Shown one piece after another: positions 48,513 to 56,894 of a stretch of 64,000 nucleotides of DNA; positions within the stretch are counted from its first letter, which is position 1; each line of letters begins with the position of its first letter. Source of the DNA: Parvibaculaceae bacterium PLY_AMNH_Bact1. GTDB taxonomy: Bacteria; Pseudomonadota; Alphaproteobacteria; Parvibaculales; Parvibaculaceae. The notes under the pieces are model-generated. The model searched no databases. It saw only the letters and a list, made by a program, of their open reading frames with translations, and had not been told where the DNA came from. The stretch lies in assembly GCA_032881465.1 (NCBI GenBank), contig CP126168.1, positions 1,240,001 to 1,304,000 of the forward strand, written 5' to 3'. Both the position numbers and the translations under genes were made by a program.

Positions 48513-48575
48513 TGTCATGCCCGGACTTGGCCCCCCCCCAAACCTGTCACCCTCGGGCCTGACCCGAGGGTCCAC
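48513..48575. repeat. Partial copy of the GTCAC/CGGGC hairpin element
   Basis: Contains GTCATGCCCGGACTTGG, then a run of C, then GTCACC with the hairpin CCTCGGG/CCCGAGG. Both halves match the ends of the 92-bp element that follows at 48643. Together they fill the 314-bp gap between the cupin gene and the small hypothetical gene. Confidence 0.6.
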
Positions 48576-48642: not shown

Positions 48643-48734
48643 GTCATACCCGGGCTTGTCCCGGGTATCCAGGGTTCCAAACACAGGCTTTAGTTCCATC
48701 GCTCCTGGACCCCCGGAAGAAATCCGGGGGTGAC
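48643..48734 (-). repeat. 92-bp composite hairpin element, minus orientation
   Basis: One end is a CCCGGGCTTG/CCCGGG hairpin starting GTCAT, the other a CCCCCGG/CCGGGGG hairpin ending in GTGAC. Its reverse complement aligns without gaps over all 92 bp with 52853-52944, about 79 positions identical by hand count. Confidence 0.8.
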
Positions 48735-48776
48735 AGCAGAGGAGGGAAAGAAACGCCGGCGTGATAAGCTGCAACC

Positions 48777-49088
48777 TCACTCAACCAACTTGTCATACAC
48801 ATCCAGCCAGTAGCGCGCCGTGACCCGGTGCAGCAAGCGCTCAGCTGTCAGCGCCCGTAACAGCGCTTCCTGTCCCGCCTGGGGGCCATGCATGCTCTGC
48901 AGAAACGTTACCGCCCGCGCCGGGTTTACATGGGAAAGCGTGTTCTGCATCCGCGCGTCTGCATCATTGTAATGCATGCGCGTGTGCGGAGGCAGAAAGG
49001 CGAGGGTGCGATCCTCTTCCGGCTTTTGGTCTTGGGGAGTGTTGGTATGGCGCTCGGCTTTGCCATCTGGCTCATCATCTCGGGTCAT
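48777..49088 (-). CDS. Hypothetical protein of 103 residues
   Basis: I do not recognise this protein. It is hydrophilic, with a charged N-terminal 30 residues (MTRDDEPDGKAERH) and a helical C-terminal part (NPARAVTFLQSMHG, ALLRALTAERLLHRVTARYW). The start at ATG 49088 follows AAAGGGGCGG; the open frame upstream runs into the palindromic region and is unlikely. It diverges from the pentapeptide-repeat gene. There is no transmembrane segment or signal peptide. Confidence 0.55.
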   Translation of the reverse strand: MTRDDEPDGKAERHTNTPQDQKPEEDRTLAFLPPHTRMHYNDADARMQNTLSHVNPARAVTFLQSMHGPQAGQEALLRALTAERLLHRVTARYWLDVYDKLVE

Positions 49089-49161
49089 GTCCGCCCCTTT
49101 TTTCTCTGTTGAGATGGGGCGGGTCCGGCAGGCATGAGAGTAGCCGGATGTTAGTAACCTC

Positions 49162-49315
49162 CACATGACATGGAGCACGGTCACCTTTAGGCGTGAGCCC
49201 TGGACATGCGTGACCGTCACCCGGCCACGCATGTCTGCTTAGGTAAAACCTAACGACGTGTGACCGCATGTCATGTTCGGGGTTACTACGCCCCACGGCA
49301 GGAATTTGCCTGCCG
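49162..49315. repeat. Nested inverted repeats upstream of the pentapeptide gene
   Basis: The 349-bp divergent gap (49089-49437) is packed with symmetry. Outer arms are CACATGACATG...GGTCAC (49162-49184) and GTGACCGCATGTCATGT (49260-49276). Inside lie perfect 10-bp arms GACATGCGTG/CACGCATGTC (49203-49212, 49226-49235) and TTAGGT/ACCTAA (49239-49253). Downstream are CGGCAGG/CCTGCCG arms (49296-49315). The half-site GTGACC/GGTCAC recurs. This could be a regulator-binding array or a remnant of a mobile element. Confidence 0.6.
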
Positions 49316-49437
49316 CAAAATCAGCATACCAGAATCTATCGTTTATGTGGAGGGGTGACAGGAAATTGGAGCTGCCTCATACTCAAACTAGGAGTTTTAC
49401 TTAACCGGTGTGGCGGCTGAGGAAGTGGGGAGTGGGC

Positions 49438-51426
49438 ATGTCATTCATCCGACCGGAAGATCGACGGGCGCGCTTGCGTCGAACGAGTGAGACCACTGCA
49501 TCTTCCAGTAGTCTGACTGATAATGAAATTGCGCAGATTGATGCGATCAACAACACATCATCCTACTGCCGCACGCTTTTCTTTTCATACCTTGCCCTCG
49601 GCGCAACCCTCTTCATTCTGGTGAGCGGGACCACCCACGAAGACCTGCTCCGTGAAACGCCGGTCAAAATGCCTCTCTTCGACATTGGCGTGCCACTGCT
49701 CACCTTCTATGTCGTTGCACCATTCTTGTTTGCGCTCTTTCATTTCAATCTATTGAACAAGCTGTCGCAGTTGCGCATGCAAATTGAAGACATGGGAGAT
49801 ATAGAAAGAGGACTCATTCGGGAACGTCTCTTTCCTTTCGACTATACGCTTCTGATTGGTGGTTTCGGAAAGAACCAGCGGGAGAACATTGTGTTATGGG
49901 CGATTGTTGGTCCTGCTCTCTATTTCTTGCCGGTGGCGTTGATTATATACACCCAGTACAAATTTCTCGCTTACCACAGCACCCCAATAACAACTTGGCA
50001 TTCCTTCCTGGTGCTTCTGAGTGTTGCATCTCTTGCTTTGTTTCACGCAGGCTCAGAGAGCCCTGCTCAACTTACCGTCGCTGCTCTTAGGCGATATGCC
50101 ATAGCGCTGACAATCTGGGCAAGTTCCGGCTTTTTCTTGACGCCACCAGATTCATGGATCGATAAATCGATAACAAAAAATTTGTGGGAGGATGTCGAGG
50201 CGGTCGGTATGTACCGAAACCTAGAACTTCCTGGACGCACATTTTGGGCTTCCGATCCGCCACCAGAAATTATTGCAGCTTACATTGAAAAATACGGTCC
50301 AGACGATCCAAAGGTTGAAGAGGCGCGCGTGAGATATGGCCACCCAATGGACTTGCGTGGGCGCGATCTACGCTATGCTGTTTTGTTTAGTGCAAGCCTT
50401 ATTGGGGCACATATGGAGGGCGCTCAGCTTCAACGTGCAAATATTTCTAGTGCCCAACTTCAAGGGGCAAGTTTGCGAAATGCCCGGCTTCAAGGTGCGC
50501 GCTTGTTCAATACTCGACTTCAGAGTGCGGATCTGGGCCACGCTGAGCTTCAGAGGGTAAGGATGGATAACGCTCTGCTCCAGGGTGCGGACTTAAGCCG
50601 AGCCCAGCTTAATGAGGCTCTCTTGAGCCAAGCTCAACTCCAAGGCGCGGACTTGATCTTTGCTGATCTTCGGGGAGCCAGCTTGAGATTTGCCGAGCTC
50701 CAAGCGGCGAGACTCAGAAAAACTCAGCTGCAGGGAGCAGATTTGAGCTATGCTAACCTTGAGAGTGCAGACTTGGAGGAAGCAGCTCTACAGGGTGCAA
50801 CCCTGCTTTGGGCCCGGCTGCAGGGTGCGGATCTTGAGGGGGCTGGGCTTCAGGGTGCAGACTTGCGTTTTACCCAGCTTCAGAGTGCTAGTTTCATCAA
50901 CACTTTTATCAATTTGGCAGACTTTACCGAGGCTGAGGCTTGGAAGCCCTCCAATGCAGAGAGAGAGGCATTCTGGACTCGACTCCGTAAGCTAGCAGAG
51001 GACCTGCCAGATGGTTATGGGCGCCGAATGCAACGCGAGATAGATAAGGCATCAGAAAGACCTCTAGTTCCTGATTTTGGTCCGTCTGAGTCGCTGCACC
51101 TGCGCGTCGCAGGAAGTCTGGCCGGTACCGGTCCAGCGTTTGCAGGCTGGTCTGGCGATAATAAGGGCAACTATCGATACATGCTCCATCAATTCTTGGG
51201 TAATCTATCATGCGAAAGTTCCGCGGCCGTCAGCAATGGCATCGCGCGCAGCAGAGCTGACAACTCCCCAGATGGTGTCATGTTAGCACGTGCGCTAGTT
51301 GAGCATCAGTGTACCGACGGGCAAGCACTCTCAGAGAGATTGTCAATTGAGGCAAAGATCTGGCTGGCCAGGATAATTGCCCGTGATGATAAGAGACTTG
51401 CTGCGGAAGCAGCAGAGAAGGATTAG
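49438..51426 (+). CDS. Membrane-anchored pentapeptide-repeat protein
   Basis: A 662-residue protein from ATG 49438 (GGGGAG 7 nt upstream; a GTG at 49408 is possible). The N-terminal part has about five hydrophobic helices (near 46-63, 84-104, 150-172, 188-203 and 220-234) and a conserved-looking TTHEDLL loop. Residues about 304-498 form roughly 39 A(D/N)LXX-type pentapeptides, often LQGAD, enough for about ten coils of a right-handed quadrilateral beta-helix. The 160-residue C-terminus has four cysteines and no recognised domain. I believe related N-terminal domains occur with pentapeptide tracts elsewhere, but function is unknown. The gene is more AT-rich than its neighbours. Confidence 0.85.
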   Translation: MSFIRPEDRRARLRRTSETTASSSSLTDNEIAQIDAINNTSSYCRTLFFSYLALGATLFILVSGTTHEDLLRETPVKMPLFDIGVPLLTFYVVAPFLFALFHFNLLNKLSQLRMQIEDMGDIERGLIRERLFPFDYTLLIGGFGKNQRENIVLWAIVGPALYFLPVALIIYTQYKFLAYHSTPITTWHSFLVLLSVASLALFHAGSESPAQLTVAALRRYAIALTIWASSGFFLTPPDSWIDKSITKNLWEDVEAVGMYRNLELPGRTFWASDPPPEIIAAYIEKYGPDDPKVEEARVRYGHPMDLRGRDLRYAVLFSASLIGAHMEGAQLQRANISSAQLQGASLRNARLQGARLFNTRLQSADLGHAELQRVRMDNALLQGADLSRAQLNEALLSQAQLQGADLIFADLRGASLRFAELQAARLRKTQLQGADLSYANLESADLEEAALQGATLLWARLQGADLEGAGLQGADLRFTQLQSASFINTFINLADFTEAEAWKPSNAEREAFWTRLRKLAEDLPDGYGRRMQREIDKASERPLVPDFGPSESLHLRVAGSLAGTGPAFAGWSGDNKGNYRYMLHQFLGNLSCESSAAVSNGIARSRADNSPDGVMLARALVEHQCTDGQALSERLSIEAKIWLARIIARDDKRLAAEAAEKD

Positions 51427-51443
51427 AAGTTCGCTCAATCGCC

Positions 51444-51740
51444 TCAAACCCCCTCCACGATAATCACGTCATTCTCTGACGCGCCTTTGCGTTTGGCTTT
51501 GGCCGCCTGATATTCCGGTGAGTGGAAGCATTCCTTTGCCGCCGCGACACTTGGGAACTCCACGACAATGTGGCGTTCCTTAGTCTGGCCTTCCACCACC
51601 TCAAAGTCACCACCGCGGGCGAGGAACCTCGCGCCATATTTCTTAAACGGTGCGGCGACGCCGGCGCGGTACTCGTCATACTTTGCCTGGTCGGTAACGG
51701 TAGCGTGGGCGATCCAATATCCTTTGGGAGTTTCGCTCAT
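51444..51740 (-). CDS. DUF1330 domain protein
   Basis: A 98-residue protein with the DUF1330 pattern: GYWIAHATVTDQAKYDEY at the start, YGARFLARGGDFEVVEG in the middle and the closing REF-like EFPSVAAAKECFHSPEYQ. It has a dimeric ferredoxin-like fold and no established function. It converges on the pentapeptide gene with a 17-bp gap. Confidence 0.85.
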   Translation of the reverse strand: MSETPKGYWIAHATVTDQAKYDEYRAGVAAPFKKYGARFLARGGDFEVVEGQTKERHIVVEFPSVAAAKECFHSPEYQAAKAKRKGASENDVIIVEGV

Positions 51741-51784
51741 GAGGGCAGGGTCCTTTCACTCAGACATTCAATCAAACAGAAGCC

Positions 51785-51862
51785 GTCACCCCCGGAATTG
51801 TTCCGGGGCAGGCATCCTTCGAGACGCGGTCCCATTGCATGGCCCCGCTCCTCAGGATGAGG
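51785..51862. repeat. Variant of the GTCAC hairpin element
   Basis: Begins GTCACCCCCGGAATTGTTCC, as in the 92-bp element, then switches to a different second half with CATCCTTCGAG and CTCAGGATG arms. The 360-bp gap around it also holds small perfect hairpins at 51880-51894 (TCCTCA/TGAGGA) and 51900-51917 (ACCAAT/ATTGGT), and then the leader of the membrane-protein gene. Confidence 0.6.
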
Positions 51863-52100
51863 GCGTCTTATAAACTATGTCCTCATGGTGAGGAGGCCTA
51901 CCAATTTACAGATTGGTGGGCCGTCTCGAACCAGGGATACAAAAGCATTAGGTAAAGTTCAGGCGGCAGCGCGGAAAAATAGAAGTAAAAAATATTTGAC
52001 TCTGAGTAAGATAAATCATACATGAGGTATATCAGAGTTGACGTGGGCGCTGTGAGCCCACGTCGCGTACCCCGTCCTGCAACCAAGGAGACCGAGCCTC

Positions 52101-52568
52101 ATGCTGCAATCCCTGTCCTTCAAAGAGCGAAATATCGTCGCCTATCTTTTCAGTATGGTGCTGGTGTTCAGCGTCTATGGCTGGGTGGTCTCGGGCCTCG
52201 CGGACGCTGGACGGTTTGACGGTCCGGACGCGTTGGCGCTGCTCGGCACCTGCATCCTCGCGCTGGTTGTCGGCACCATTGTCGTGACCTTTGTCATCGT
52301 GATTGCTTTCAACATTGTGCTGACAAAAGTTGCTGGCGACGCGGAAGACGAGACGGCCTACCTGATGGATGAGCGCGACCGGATGATTGAACTAAAAAGT
52401 CTCAAGGTCGCCCACTATCTGACGGGCACCGGGGTGTGTCTCTCCATGCTGGTACTGGCCTTTGGTGGCAGTGCATTCCTTGTCTTCCATCTCGTCATGT
52501 TTTCCTTTGCCGGCGCGGACATCATCGCGTCTCTGGTGCAGTTCCGCTTTTACCGGAAGGGCGCCTGA
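52101..52568 (+). CDS. Four-helix inner-membrane protein, paired with a regulator
   Basis: A 155-residue protein with four hydrophobic helices (about 12-32, 43-70, 104-122, 125-145) and a charged cytoplasmic loop (about 75-100) holding AYLMDERDRMIELKS. I do not recognise it firmly; it resembles the small membrane proteins encoded ahead of XRE-type regulators. AAGGAG precedes the ATG. Only 3 bp separate it from the regulator, so the two form one operon. Confidence 0.7.
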   Translation: MLQSLSFKERNIVAYLFSMVLVFSVYGWVVSGLADAGRFDGPDALALLGTCILALVVGTIVVTFVIVIAFNIVLTKVAGDAEDETAYLMDERDRMIELKSLKVAHYLTGTGVCLSMLVLAFGGSAFLVFHLVMFSFAGADIIASLVQFRFYRKGA

Positions 52569-52571
52569 GCG

Positions 52572-52814
52572 ATGGCCAAAGACAAGGGAGCCGCTCGCCC
52601 CAAGAAGACGCGCGTAGCGAACAATATCCGCCGTCTGCGGTTCGATCATGATGAAATGACGCAGAAGGAGCTGGCAGAGCGTGTCGGTGTCACCCGCCAG
52701 ACCATTGTCGCGATTGAGAAGGCCGCCTATTCGCCGTCGCTGGAGCTTGCCTTCCTCATTGCGCGTGAGTTCGGCCGGCCACTCGAAGAGGTTTTTTCGT
52801 TCGAGGACGGGTGA
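52572..52814 (+). CDS. XRE-family helix-turn-helix regulator
   Basis: An 80-residue DNA-binding protein with a basic N-terminal tail and one HTH domain: MTQKELAERVGVTRQTIVAIEK is the helix-turn-helix, followed by SLELAFLIAREFGRPLEEVF. The family is typified by short regulators encoded beside small membrane proteins. It probably controls its own operon; the operator is not identified. Confidence 0.88.
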   Translation: MAKDKGAARPKKTRVANNIRRLRFDHDEMTQKELAERVGVTRQTIVAIEKAAYSPSLELAFLIAREFGRPLEEVFSFEDG

Positions 52815-52852
52815 GGGGAGTGGGAACTCAGAACGGTGTCCACACAAAAGCC

Positions 52853-52944
52853 GTCACCCCCGGATTTATTCCGGGGGTCCAGGAGCGATAGCGCACAGGC
52901 CTATGTTTGGAACCCTGGATGCCCTGAACAAGTCCGGGCATGAC
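52853..52944 (+). repeat. 92-bp composite hairpin element, plus orientation
   Basis: Inverted partner of 48643-48734. The hairpin CCCCCGG/CCGGGGG is followed by a shared GTCCAGGAGCGAT, then TTTGGAACCCTGGAT and a CCGGGCATGAC end. It lies between the XRE regulator and the nrdJ stop. Confidence 0.8.
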
Positions 52945-52983: not shown

Positions 52984-55900
52984 TTAACTACATCCGCTCG
53001 TACCACCACATGTATCGCATTTAAGGCAGGTGCCGTTCCGAACCATGGTGAAGTTGCCGCATTCGCTGCACGCTTCCCCCTCATAGCCCTTCATGCGTGC
53101 TTCCACCGCCGCAGACATGGTCCGGGAGATGGACGTGTTGCCACCTCCGGCCTGAACCGTTGTCGCGACTGCAATCTGCTCTGTGGCGACAATCTCTGTC
53201 TCTGTCACCAGCATGGTTTCAGGCTCTGCGAGTGTTTCAGCCATGAGCGCCTCTGCGGCTTGGCCTGCACGAACGGTCGCCGCGCCACCTCGCACCACAT
53301 AAAGGTTCCCAAGCTGCGTGTTCCGCGCAAAGCCCGGCGAGGCGATGGCCGTTGCGGGCATCGGGGCGGGCGGTAGCTTGCCTTCGTCTTCTCCCTCACC
53401 CATGGCGTCGGGCATCAGGTCCGCAGGTTCTACATGACCGAGGTCATGACGGCCAAGATAGGAGACGGCAAGTTCGCGGAACACATAGTCGAGGATCGAG
53501 GTGGCGTTCTTGATCGTGTCATTGCCCTGTACAAGGCCTGCGGGCTCGAAGCGGGTGAACGTGAAGGCCTCCACATATTCTTCCAGCGGCACGCCATATT
53601 GCATACCGAGCGAAATCGCGATGGCGAAATTGTTCATGAGCGAGCGGAAGGCAGCCCCTTCCTTGTGCATGTCGATGAAAATCTCACCGATCGTGCCGTC
53701 TTCATACTCGCCGGTGCGCAGATAGACTTTGTGTCCGCCGACAACCGCCTTCTGCGTGTAACCTTTACGACGATCCGGCAGTTTCGCGCGTTCGCCGCGC
53801 TCTCCGTCTGCCATCGCGGCGCCCGCTGTCTGCGCTTGCTCAAGGGTTTTGCTGGCTAGCTTGCTTGCGAGTGTTGCTGCCTGTGCGGCAGCGGGCTGTT
53901 CAATGAGCGTCGGTGCAGCGGCAATGACTTCATCTGCCATCTCCATGTCCAGATCGTCATCTTCCACCAGCTGTGCGTTGAGAGGCTGGGAAAGTTTCGA
54001 GCCGTCGCGATAAAGCGCATTGGCTTTGAGGCCAAGCTTCCAGGACAGCATGTAGCTTTCTTTGCAATCTTCTACACTGGCCGAGTTCGGCATGTTGATG
54101 GTCTTGGAGATAGCGCCGGATATGAAAGGCTGCGAAGCCGCCATCATGCGGATGTGGCTGTCGACAGAGAGGAAACGCTTCCCTGTCCGGCCGCACGGGT
54201 TCGCGCAATCGAAGACGGGAAGGTGCGCCTCTGCGAGGCCGGGCGCACCCTCCAACGTCATCGCGCCACAAACATGCAAGTTTGCAGCTTCAATTTCGTC
54301 CGTGCTGAAGCCGAGGGCCGCCAGCATGTCGAAATCAATCTCATCCATGGCATCCGCGTCGAGACCGAGTGTCTCCGTGCAAAAAGCTTCGCCAAGCGCA
54401 TATTTGTTGAAGGCGAACCGAATGTCGAAAGCCGTCGCAAGAGCGCCTTCCACAAGTTCAAGTGCTTCTTGGGTAAAGCCTTTAGTTGCAAGCGTTTCAT
54501 GGTTCACACCGGGCGCGCCATTAAGTGTACCGTGGCCCACTGCATAGCCGACAATCTCTTCAATCTGCTCCGGCTTATAGCCAAGTGTACGAAGCGCCTG
54601 TGGCACCGCCCGATTGATGATCTTGAAATAGCCACCACCGGCGAGTTTTTTGAACTTCACGAGAGCAAAGTCGGGTTCGATGCCGGTCGTGTCGCAATCC
54701 ATGACAAGGCCGATCGTGCCCGTGGGTGCCACAACGGTCGACTGGGCATTGCGGTAGCCATATTTCTCGCCCATGGAGACAGCGAGGTCCCAGGCAGCCC
54801 GGGCATGCTCGACAAGGTCGCCTTGTGGGCAGTGGGGCGCATCAAGTGGCACCGGATTGGTCGAAAGACCCTCATATGCCGTTGCTTCCCCATGGGCCGC
54901 AGCGCGATGGTTCCGCATGACGCGGAGCATATGGGTCTCATTTTCGCCAAAGCCGGGGAAGGCTCCCAGTTCCTTCGCCATCTGGGCAGACGTGGCATAG
55001 GAGACACCGGTCATAATCGCTGAAATCGCACCACAGATCGCACGGGCCTCTTTGGAGTCATAGCTGATGCCCTGGGACATCAAGAGGCCGCCGATATTCG
55101 CAAAGCCGAGGCCCAGCGTGCGAAACTTGTAGGAGAGTTCTGCAATTTCTTTCGACGGGAACTGCGCCATCAGTACAGAAATTTCGAGCACCACGGTCCA
55201 GAGCTTGGCCACATGCTCAAAGGCTTCCACGTCAAAGCGTCCGGACGCCTGACGGAACTGCATCAGATTAATGGATGCGAGATTACACGCCGTATTATCA
55301 AGGAACATATATTCCGAACACGGATTACTGGCGCGGATCTCGCCACTTTCCGGGCAGGTGTGCCAGTCATTGATCGTTGTGTGGTACTGGATGCCGGGAT
55401 CAGCACTCTGCCAGGCGGCTTGTCCGATCTGGTCCCAAAGCTCCCGCGCGTCGAGCGTCTTGGCAATCGCACTGTCTGTCCGGTTGATCAGATGCCAGTC
55501 GCTGTCGGACTCAACCGCCTTCAGGAAGTCATCCGTCACGCGGACTGTATTGTTCGAGTTCTGGCCTGACACAGTGAGGTAGGCGTCCGAGTCCCAATCG
55601 GTGTCATAGGTACGGAACTCAATTTCTTTGAAACCTTGTTTCGCGAACTGAATAACCCGCTGCACATAGTTTTCAGGGATCATGGCTTCACGCGCGGCAA
55701 TGATTGCGCGTTTCAGCGCAGGGTTTTTCTTCGGGTCGAAGCAGTCACCCTCGGGCCCTTCGCAATTGACGCAGGCGCGCATCACAGCACCCAAGAACTT
55801 CTCGTTGATCTTTGAGCCGGTGACGAGGGCAGCAACCTTCTGCTCTTCGATCACCTTCCAGTTGATGAAGTGCTCAATGTCGGGATGATCCACATCGACC

Positions 55901-56745
55901 ACCACCATTTTGGCGGCGCGCCGTGTGGTACCACCAGACTTGATAGCGCCTGCAGCGCGGTCCCCGATTTTCAGGAAGGACATGAGACCTGAAGACTTGC
56001 CACCACCGGAAAGAGGCTCGCTCTCGCCCCGCAGATGAGAGAAATTGGATCCGGTCCCAGACCCGAATTTGAACAGGCGCGCTTCACGGACCCACAGATC
56101 CATAATGCCGTTTTCATTCACCAGGTCATCATCGACGCCTTGGATGAAGCAGGCGTGCGGTTGCGGGTGTTCATAGGCGCTGTCGCTAACTGTCAGCTCA
56201 CCACTCTGAAAGTCCACATAATGGTGGCCCTGAGCTGGACCGTCGATGCCGTACGCCCAGTTGAGGCCGGTATTGAACCATTGTGGAGAGTTTGGCGCGG
56301 CAATTTGTGTGGCGAGCATAAAACGCAGTTCGTCGTAGAAGGCGCGGGCATCTGCTTCTGTGTCGAAATAGCCGCCTTTCCAGCCCCAAAAGGTCCAGGT
56401 GCCTGCCAGCCGATCAAAAACCTGTCGGGCGTCTGTTTCTGGCCCAAACCGCTCGCCCTCTGGCATGTCGCCCAACCGGGGCTCATCTGCTTCGTGAGCC
56501 CAGAGCCAGGATGGAATGCTCTCATCTTTGACCGGGCGCAGCACTGCCGGGACGCCGGCCTTACGGAAGTATTTCTGTGCCAGAATGTCAGCTGCAACCT
56601 GGCTCCAGTCCGCCGGTACCGCGATGTCATCAAGCCGAAACACAATCGTACCGTCCGGATTTCGGATTTCGCTCGTCGTTGTGCGGAATTCGATACCCTC
56701 GTAAGGCGATTTGGCTTCGTCTGTGAAACACCGTTGTATGCGCAT
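52984..56745 (-). CDS. nrdJ: Adenosylcobalamin-dependent ribonucleotide reductase
   Basis: The class II enzyme that makes deoxyribonucleotides with or without oxygen. I start at ATG 56745 ([20 protein letters not shown], 1253 residues) as in relatives, with GGGGG ahead; the open frame upstream is not family-like. Visible are [24 protein letters not shown], the active-site [11 protein letters not shown] with the radical cysteine region, [19 protein letters not shown], and a C-terminal cysteine-rich tail ([23 protein letters not shown]) that is probably a zinc site or redox relay. No other RNR is in the window. I found no cobalamin riboswitch upstream. Confidence 0.95.
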
Positions 56746-56894
56746 TTGGCCCCCATCATCTTCTTGTAGATGCGCCCGTCGCCGCCGACGAAACGCCAAT
56801 CTTTTTGCCCTTGGTCAGATGCTCGCAGGTTGGTCCCAGATGGCGCATAAGAGGCAGCTTTCCTGCGGTCCCGTGTCCTTAACCCACTGACTCA

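Follow-up and report, generated by a model that had tools for sequence, protein, structure and literature searches.

Two facing REP dimers and a structured leader RNA with self-addressed complementarity before a small open reading frame in a Parvibaculaceae genome

The window—the whole stretch of DNA analysed here—comprises 64,000 nucleotides (nt) of Parvibaculaceae bacterium PLY_AMNH_Bact1 and corresponds to positions 1240001–1304000 of one contig of 3,741,076 bases (CP126168.1; own genome, code G000). Two 92-base repeats face each other within it and enclose five genes: a small open reading frame (ORF), a pentapeptide-repeat membrane protein gene, a DUF1330 gene, the gene of a membrane protein of 155 amino acids (aa), and an XRE-type regulator gene (Table 1). 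The repeats are dimers of repetitive extragenic palindromic (REP) elements of an already known kind; the new part is a structured leader RNA with self-addressed complementarity, located before the small ORF. The agreement of 79 of 92 positions that the first-pass annotation had counted by hand between 48643–48734 and the reverse complement of 52853–52944 was reproduced, and the slightly longer arms 48643–48737 and 52850–52944 are alike at 81 of 95 positions (BLAST E value 5.55e-27 within the window). Left of the bracket, the reported partial copy is present as the first half of a hairpin, the variant reported inside it lies at 51782–51808, and BLAST of the window found no further copy in the 64 kb, as had been stated. 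Scanning the entire window for structure gave five hairpins, starting at 48546, 48643, 48706, 52853, and 52916. The first of these is of a related type that had not been singled out before, and its partner looks degraded. At the gathering threshold, Rfam has no match in the window.

Table 1. Features of the locus in window coordinates
Feature	Position	Strand	Evidence and remarks
Truncated CGTC-REP half hairpin	48514..48529	+	BLAST match to the element's initial 16 bases; close to the left end of the accessory insert
Second-type REP hairpin, CTCGG core, TCCAC tail	48546..48574	+	Hairpin scan, repeat families
Left REP dimer	48643..48734	+	Hairpins 48643–48671 (+) and 48706–48734 (−); outer triplets TAC, CCC
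Small ORF, 103 aa (hypothetical gene of the first-pass annotation)	48777..49088	−	One of four paralogues in the genome
Hairpin beside the start codon	49092..49121	−	Consensus fold of eight leaders; putative role
Structured leader RNA, main body (upstream target segment and sRNA-Xcc1-like module)	49143..49296	−	Match of leader model R2, covariation
Leader hairpin 1, with a GC-rich stem and a CAAATT loop	49297..49316	−	Weak c4-a1b1 match here in two copies
Pentapeptide-repeat membrane protein gene, 672 aa, accessory	49408..51426 (start may be 49432)	+	Pfam PF00805, E 3e-36
DUF1330 gene, conserved	51444..51740	−	PF07045, E 5.6e-37; present in G001–G004
Degenerate REP half	51782..51808	+	Repeat families, BLAST
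Membrane protein gene, 155 aa	52101..52568	+	Conserved in G001–G004
XRE-type regulator gene	52572..52814	+	HTH_3, E 1.5e-13; conserved in G001–G004
Right REP dimer	52853..52944	−	Hairpins 52853–52881 (+) and 52916–52944 (−); outer triplets CCC, TGC; between the convergent XRE gene and nrdJ
Class II ribonucleotide reductase gene (nrdJ), conserved flank	52984..56799	−	PF08471, PF02867

Each of the two 92-base repeats consists of two CGTC-type REPs, members of a published family, joined head to head. In the available portion of its description, CGTC-tagged REPs carry a GTC tag, a 9-bp stem, a 5-nt loop, and a CCA tail and form head-to-head pairs (Di Nocera et al. 2013, PMC3733652); spacers are mostly 20–100 bp, the hosts are mostly Alphaproteobacteria, a dedicated transposase is lacking, and unidirectional and convergent gaps are favoured. 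Alignment A2 holds 42 full elements of the own genome and the genus (of 44 hits, a partial one and one carrying an insert were omitted). Their hairpins feature a GTC tag, nine pairs, a 5-nt loop, and a TCCAG tail and lie within the definition of a GTC tag, an 8–9 bp stem, a 4–5 nt loop, and CCA. Folded as two local hairpins, 98.3% of the cells are paired and 137 are double-changed, compared with 37.8 ± 5.5 after shuffling (n = 42). A single long palindrome was rejected as the fold of the element: it pairs 83.6% of the cells, below the shuffled mean of 84.8%. Searched with the 95-mer by BLAST, the own genome yields 28 matches, about a dozen of them full-length. A hairpin pattern blind to the outer triplets, with one mismatch allowed, gave 40 matches; 37 were kept—those at 965739, 1391847, and 1631481 are not hairpin-like—and the reversed control pattern gave 2. 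Thirty of the 37 hairpins make up 15 head-to-head (+,−) pairs, all with variable spacers and with outer triplets that differ within the pair, and seven are unpaired at that stringency. Several elements each are clustered at 2.500 Mb and 3.565 Mb. At 3564597–3567450 (L062), three REP dimers have spacers of 87–111 nt as opposed to about 34, and one of them lies 3' of a further copy of the leader and ORF. A 3-kb locus (L137) contains a direct repeat too, the copies of which are offset by about 120 bases.

As judged with a home-made gene caller, the 22 element sites of the genome are distributed over unidirectional gaps (11), convergent gaps (7), divergent gaps (3), and the inside of a called gene (1). 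RIME and BIME elements and REP doublets forming hairpins (REPINs) are likewise dispersed, intergenic, and built of two palindromes around a spacer. Mobilization by a REP-associated tyrosine transposase (RAYT), which would make the repeats RAYT-mobilized REPs or REPINs, was rejected: there is no RAYT gene in the own genome or the seven genus genomes, and the domain Y1_Tnp (PF01797) occurs in none of the seven genus genomes, in 1 of 37 family genomes, and in 5 of 14 control genomes. Target-site duplications were not clear by eye in aligned flanks of filled and apparently empty sites. Caulobacter has GANTC-centred intergenic repeats; the elements were rejected as repeats of this kind, CcrM-type GANTC sites being present in just 3 of the 42. 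A cluster of REP dimers at L139:1835–1963 matches the Rfam family WsnRNA46, a Wolbachia small RNA (sRNA), at 37.5 bits, which is below the gathering score, and WsnRNA46 may partly model CGTC REP dimers.

The two hairpins of an element differ in their outer stems. Among the 42 elements, none has the same outer triplet on both sides, where 6.8–7.9 are expected (P 0.00015, a value too small owing to shared descent, as are all P values for heteromery). Because this set was found by profile, heteromery was retested with a triplet-blind symmetric pattern in 61 genomes. This yielded 66 elements, spread over 16 genomes from two genera, with 0 in the control; homomeric pairs number 0 of 66, compared with 14.7 expected under random pairing, and the stem cores match in 62 of 66. 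The elements fit the published CGTC REPs in tag, stem, loop, tail, head-to-head heterodimers, and lack of a transposase, and they differ in that heteromery is total (66/66) and the core matched in 62/66; Parvibaculum is not named in the available portion of that text (PMC3733652). The same portion gives heterodimers as preferred in CGTC-2 and CGTC-3, homodimers as predominant in other CGTC families, and the preference as having no obvious explanation. At one orthologous site (own 2471988 and its counterpart in relative G003; L058:9488–9579 and L074:11507–11597), the flanks match up to the junctions, the left hairpins differ, and the spacers are unrelated (0.17 direct, 0.63 flipped). This difference may be because of replacement, spacer inversion, or repeated insertion.

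The locus was found and read in four of six genus relatives—G001, G002, G003, and G004, the last up to the end of its contig. The order and orientation of ORF164, cupin, DUF1330, membrane protein, XRE regulator, and nrdJ genes are the same in G001, G002, and G003, and G004 has DUF1330, membrane, and XRE genes in the same order and orientation up to the contig end. The three proteins are 89–95% identical in these four genomes; in G005 and G006, the locus of which was not read, the 155-aa membrane protein has no match. None of the four relatives has the hypothetical or the pentapeptide gene at the locus. Hence, the view that the bracketed genes are the least conserved of the window applies to these two and fails for the other three. 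The homology of G001 and G002 stops, by eye, close to 48514–48529. In G001, 78 bases separate the cupin and DUF1330 matches, which places an accessory insert at about 48.53–51.44 kb that does not match the bracket. Its right edge is at about 51442; the right dimer lies elsewhere, in the convergent gap between XRE gene and nrdJ. The more modest description, of REP-like elements, is correct, with one of the two dimers in accessory DNA. In the cupin–DUF1330 gap of G003 (L053), a 24-aa remnant of the DUF1330 C-terminus stands beside the cupin gene together with a different small insert, so this gap took insertions more than once. The XRE–nrdJ gap of five genomes features in three of them a REP dimer that differs in kind or spacer orientation and in two an insert: G004 has a dimer with the spacer motif reversed (L054:5984–6074), G003 a TCCAT-type dimer, i.e., a different REP type (L053), and G001 and G002 carry 2.8–2.9 kb of other DNA. 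Aligned as whole elements, the own and G004 dimers agree at 0.78 flipped and 0.72 direct; for the spacer alone, the values are 0.60 and 0.63.

In the own genome, the left REP dimer ends an accessory unit between the cupin and DUF1330 genes that consists of the leader RNA, an ORF of about 100 aa, and REP. The small ORF has matches in 5 of the 61 genomes: the own genome has four copies, G005 two, G001 and G003 one apiece, and G033 a marginal match. All eight genus copies keep an open ORF of 85–124 aa with a conserved C-terminal half, a REP hairpin 15–42 nt past the stop codon, and a conserved stretch of about 200 nt upstream. The main body of the leader has a mean column identity of 84% and the proteins one of 58%, although values for DNA and for protein can be compared only loosely. 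A longer version of the 103-aa ORF, to 49232, extends into the leader. Domain scans covered two to three of the eight members: two, including the window copy, match nothing in Pfam, NCBIfam, or PADLOC, and a third has no match in Pfam and a best NCBIfam E value of 0.17. The best PHROG match has an E value of 0.028 (three members), the family profile has no match in PDB, and searches of the phage and plasmid collections gave no match and a single match (E 0.07), respectively. The predicted structure shows plain helices in the C-terminal half (mean predicted local distance difference test score, pLDDT, 67.5) and a weak N-terminal half.

The leaders of the eight genus units share a fold in which 96.3% of the cells are paired and 26 are double-changed, compared with 9.3 ± 2.4. 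Beside the start codon, the 3' arm GGGGCG of the last hairpin occupies the position expected for a Shine–Dalgarno sequence. A leader model of 159 positions (R2) was searched in 290 genomes with strict filters and an E value of 0.01 or better; its score of 169.2 bits for the window copy is by construction, this copy being part of the model. Matches occur in 9 of the 290 genomes. Within the genus, the own genome has four, G005 three, the third of them weak, and G001 and G003 one apiece; weaker matches lie in five genomes more distant within the class (G208 with four, the best at 3.1e-8, G139 with two, G157 with three, and G217 and G054 with one each). As judged by eye, the distant copies have the ends and the bulge GUAUGUCCA ... 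UAAAG in common, and the ORFs downstream of them differ. On plasmids, leader copies precede a prepilin-type gene, traM, and a transcriptional regulator gene (one each), the match before the regulator spanning 19% of the query. Five IMG/VR contigs—putatively viral and amounting to three distinct sequences—carry the leader RNA, and the phage collection has no match to the two distant leaders used as query. The downstream module consists of an outer stem, an inner stem, and a small hairpin and is 98.3% paired in 22 RNAs; 14 of its 19 pairs are double-changed, with 76 such cells compared with 22.2 ± 3.8 (0 of 500 shuffles, n = 22), and controls in which the structure was slid stay below 44% paired. 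L157 and L165 are not in alignment A8 because of an insert, and the viral hit L166 was dropped, being cut near its end with the rest of the RNA not shown. L168 and L170 equal L167 over the stretch read and were counted once.

Two segments 5' of the module are complementary to its 3' part. The stem of the first target with its own module has a mean length of 7.64, compared with 5.24 when modules are swapped (maximum of 400 swaps, 6.09; n = 22, with L167 and L169 absent), and that of the second target has 8.25 compared with 5.74 (maximum of 500 swaps, 6.62; n = 24 with 23 distinct arms); L175 and L176 are in no test. Mean self-pairing lies above every swap set; the leader, thus, has upstream targets complementary to the module, as does a C4-type system. 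In every row of the four own and the four G208 copies, no stem is longer than the self stem, with off-diagonal ties between the own1363 target and the own1288 module (9) and between the own3564 target and the own2499 module (7). The copies differ in sequence yet keep their complementarity, as expected of a target and its antisense strand.

The C4 arrangement consists of two target segments 5' of an antisense module on one transcript, followed by the regulated gene, and its hallmark is a second target at the ribosome-binding site. The leader resembles C4 (RF01695, RF03163) in having an upstream target pair, an antisense-like module, and then a gene; it differs in that no match to RF01695 is listed, RF03163 (c4-a1b1) is reached in two of eight copies at 32.4 and 23.9 bits, below the gathering score, and no antirepressor is recognized 3' of the leaders—the genes being the ORF without a family match of note and, elsewhere, prepilin-type, TraM, and regulator genes. 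The family reaches no Rfam gathering score at all. Eight of nine further loci match RF02221 (sRNA-Xcc1) on the same strand and in the same part of the RNA at 27.8–37.2 bits, with the gathering score at 53 bits (9 of the 12 further loci were searched, without L157, L160, and L161); one of the eight, L159, belongs to G005. Among the viral and plasmid sources, one of seven matches, namely the viral contig L164 at 34.3 bits. The leader and sRNA-Xcc1 have in common an outer stem with CCCGGC-like ends, an inner stem and short hairpin, a CGUC...CGGUU hairpin, and a gene downstream. They differ in the bulge, which is AAUACAA...GGAAUA in the RF02221 consensus and GUAUGUCCA...UAAAG in the leader, and in all matches of the leader family being below the gathering score, with none in the eight genus-unit leaders. 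The leader was, therefore, rejected as C4 or sRNA-Xcc1 proper on the gathering scores, the ribosome site, and the antirepressor. With the RF02221 consensus as query, 16 phage and 4 plasmid records were retrieved, and the four phage loci examined of the 16 records are all genuine sRNA-Xcc1 at 71–86 bits. The next gene codes for Ant in Aaphi23 (L171) and Pmp3 (L173), a KilA-N protein in Acinetobacter phage 4316 (L172), and an unnamed protein in Mcat15. The position of genuine sRNA-Xcc1 before Ant and KilA-N genes in phages points to a C4-like nature of this RNA, too, and gives it a likely cis context, 5' of antirepressor genes. In the available portions of the sources, sRNA-Xcc1 is treated as a virulence-linked or trans-acting sRNA (PMC2996969, PMC12444791), C4 antisense RNA regulates Ant in phage P1 (PMC8201110), and the short form of IsrK of Gifsy-1 switches on translation of the read-through form (PMC4825925). 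In the accessible open-licence literature, a single paper names both sRNA-Xcc1 and C4, side by side in Xylella, and does not join them, and no title joining symE, integron cassette, and structured RNA is among the matches listed there.

Taken together, the bracket is probably a coincidence of two CGTC REP dimers and the leader a C4/sRNA-Xcc1-like antisense switch. The REP part is based on family, structure, genome copies, and unchanged gene order in four relatives and the leader part on conserved structure and on private complementarity in nearly every copy. Each REP dimer folds as two small hairpins near gene ends and, in transcripts, would most likely serve as a 3' structure in termination or mRNA protection. 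The 5' segment of the leader has two short targets, to which the downstream module presents complementary strands. With the module paired to its own upstream targets, the transcript may adopt one fold and, with the module unpaired, another—a change that may switch translation of the small ORF, the start codon of which adjoins a hairpin. Judging from the architecture, the leader may work like C4; antisense action, switching, and the direction of the effect are inferred. The following points weigh against this picture. RNAalifold favours a different fold for the eight genus leaders, and the module structure was chosen after the sequences were seen, which favours it. For the first target, the longest stem found in G001, L150, and L159 differs from the one expected, and G001 has no clear second pairing. 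A second target at the ribosome-binding site does not stand out, with 5.04 self compared with 4.81 swapped (P 0.135, n = 24; P 0.08 in the distant RNAs and 0.81 in the genus, 8 RNAs). R2 matches neither the four phage sRNA-Xcc1 RNAs nor L176; in the phage sRNA-Xcc1 loci, self pairing is not above cross pairing by a crude stem test; and sRNA-Xcc1 is unmatched in all eight genus-unit leaders, L155, L165, and L167–L170. The c4-a1b1 match is not listed when all eight leaders are searched together and, hence, carries little weight. On the REP side, the excess of convergent gaps that backs a 3'-end role is just mild.

A wider reading is held tentatively, at a little under an even chance: the leaders would form a new RNA family that is found on plasmids, on viral contigs, and in several lineages of Alphaproteobacteria. 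Each copy would have its own target and matching antisense module, and several copies in one genome could, therefore, regulate unrelated accessory genes with little cross-talk. In that case, the C4/sRNA-Xcc1 antirepressor switch would have left phage immunity behind and become portable and self-addressed, in the genus packed as RNA, ORF of about 100 aa, and REP. Complementarity that is private to each copy, set in an RNA frame that is conserved, points to a portable antisense switch for chromosomal, plasmid, and possibly viral genes.

The leader could instead be a riboswitch, with the conserved bulge and hairpin binding a small molecule and the variable helices holding the fold. The bulge is nearly invariant inside a covarying stem, the RNA lies just 5' of start codons, and the downstream genes vary between genomes. 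However, these genes have no evident common pathway (prepilin-type, TraM, and regulator genes, as well as ORFs that, by eye, resemble outer-membrane proteins and lipoproteins), ligand binding needs no hypervariable private pairings, and the partial likeness is to an RNA found before antirepressor genes in phages, which together make a riboswitch unlikely. Rather more doubtful is a toxin–antitoxin or addiction-like cassette with REP, in which the RNA would restrain a harmful small protein, as has been suggested for symE and sRNA-Xcc1. The ORF does follow straight after a regulatory-looking RNA and has several paralogues with mostly separate pairings, and a symE/sRNA-Xcc1 cassette of Xanthomonas integrons is described in the available part of PMC12444791. 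Yet, the members scanned belong to no Pfam or PADLOC family and to none of note in NCBIfam, and the helices modelled for the C-terminal half are plain.

For the repeats, the first-pass annotation had put forward an invertible or composite-mobile unit as possible; such a segment, 4.3 kb long, would explain inverted arms that are 85% identical and enclose accessory genes. This is highly improbable and was rejected: the opposite orientation occurs in none of the four relatives read, with order and orientation constant in G001–G003 and in G004 as far as it is assembled, these relatives conserve three of the five genes inside the bracket, the right repeat is away from the insert edge, and 13 further complete dimers and seven single hairpins lie elsewhere in the genome. 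A Y1 transposase is absent from the genome, other recombinases not having been searched for. That annotation had also held that dozens of evenly spread copies and an unchanged gene order would make the bracket a coincidence; the dozens (37 hairpins) and the order were found, and the even spread was not, some copies being clustered. The two facing repeats bracket the segment by coincidence and neither define nor flip it. As to why the dimers are heteromeric, descent from one heteromeric founder, with neither selection nor clearance of perfect palindromes, is a serious possibility that falls somewhat short of even. The elements are related, genus g5 has just two combinations, and homodimers are predominant elsewhere in the CGTC families (PMC3733652, available portion). 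On the other hand, the combinations TTG–TGC, TGC–CCC, and CCC–TTG are all found, so there are not two fixed classes, and the absence of homomeric pairs is far from the 14.7 expected, a null that ignores descent. With 0 of 66 homomeric, mostly matched cores, and invariably differing outer stems, the heterodimer preference is testable by palindrome-stability assays.

The pentapeptide-repeat membrane protein is full-length only in the own genome among the seven genus genomes, and its use as query against the genome contigs gave no relative. A partial paralogue is located in the own genome at 2407264–2408769, with 47% identity over the repeat part.

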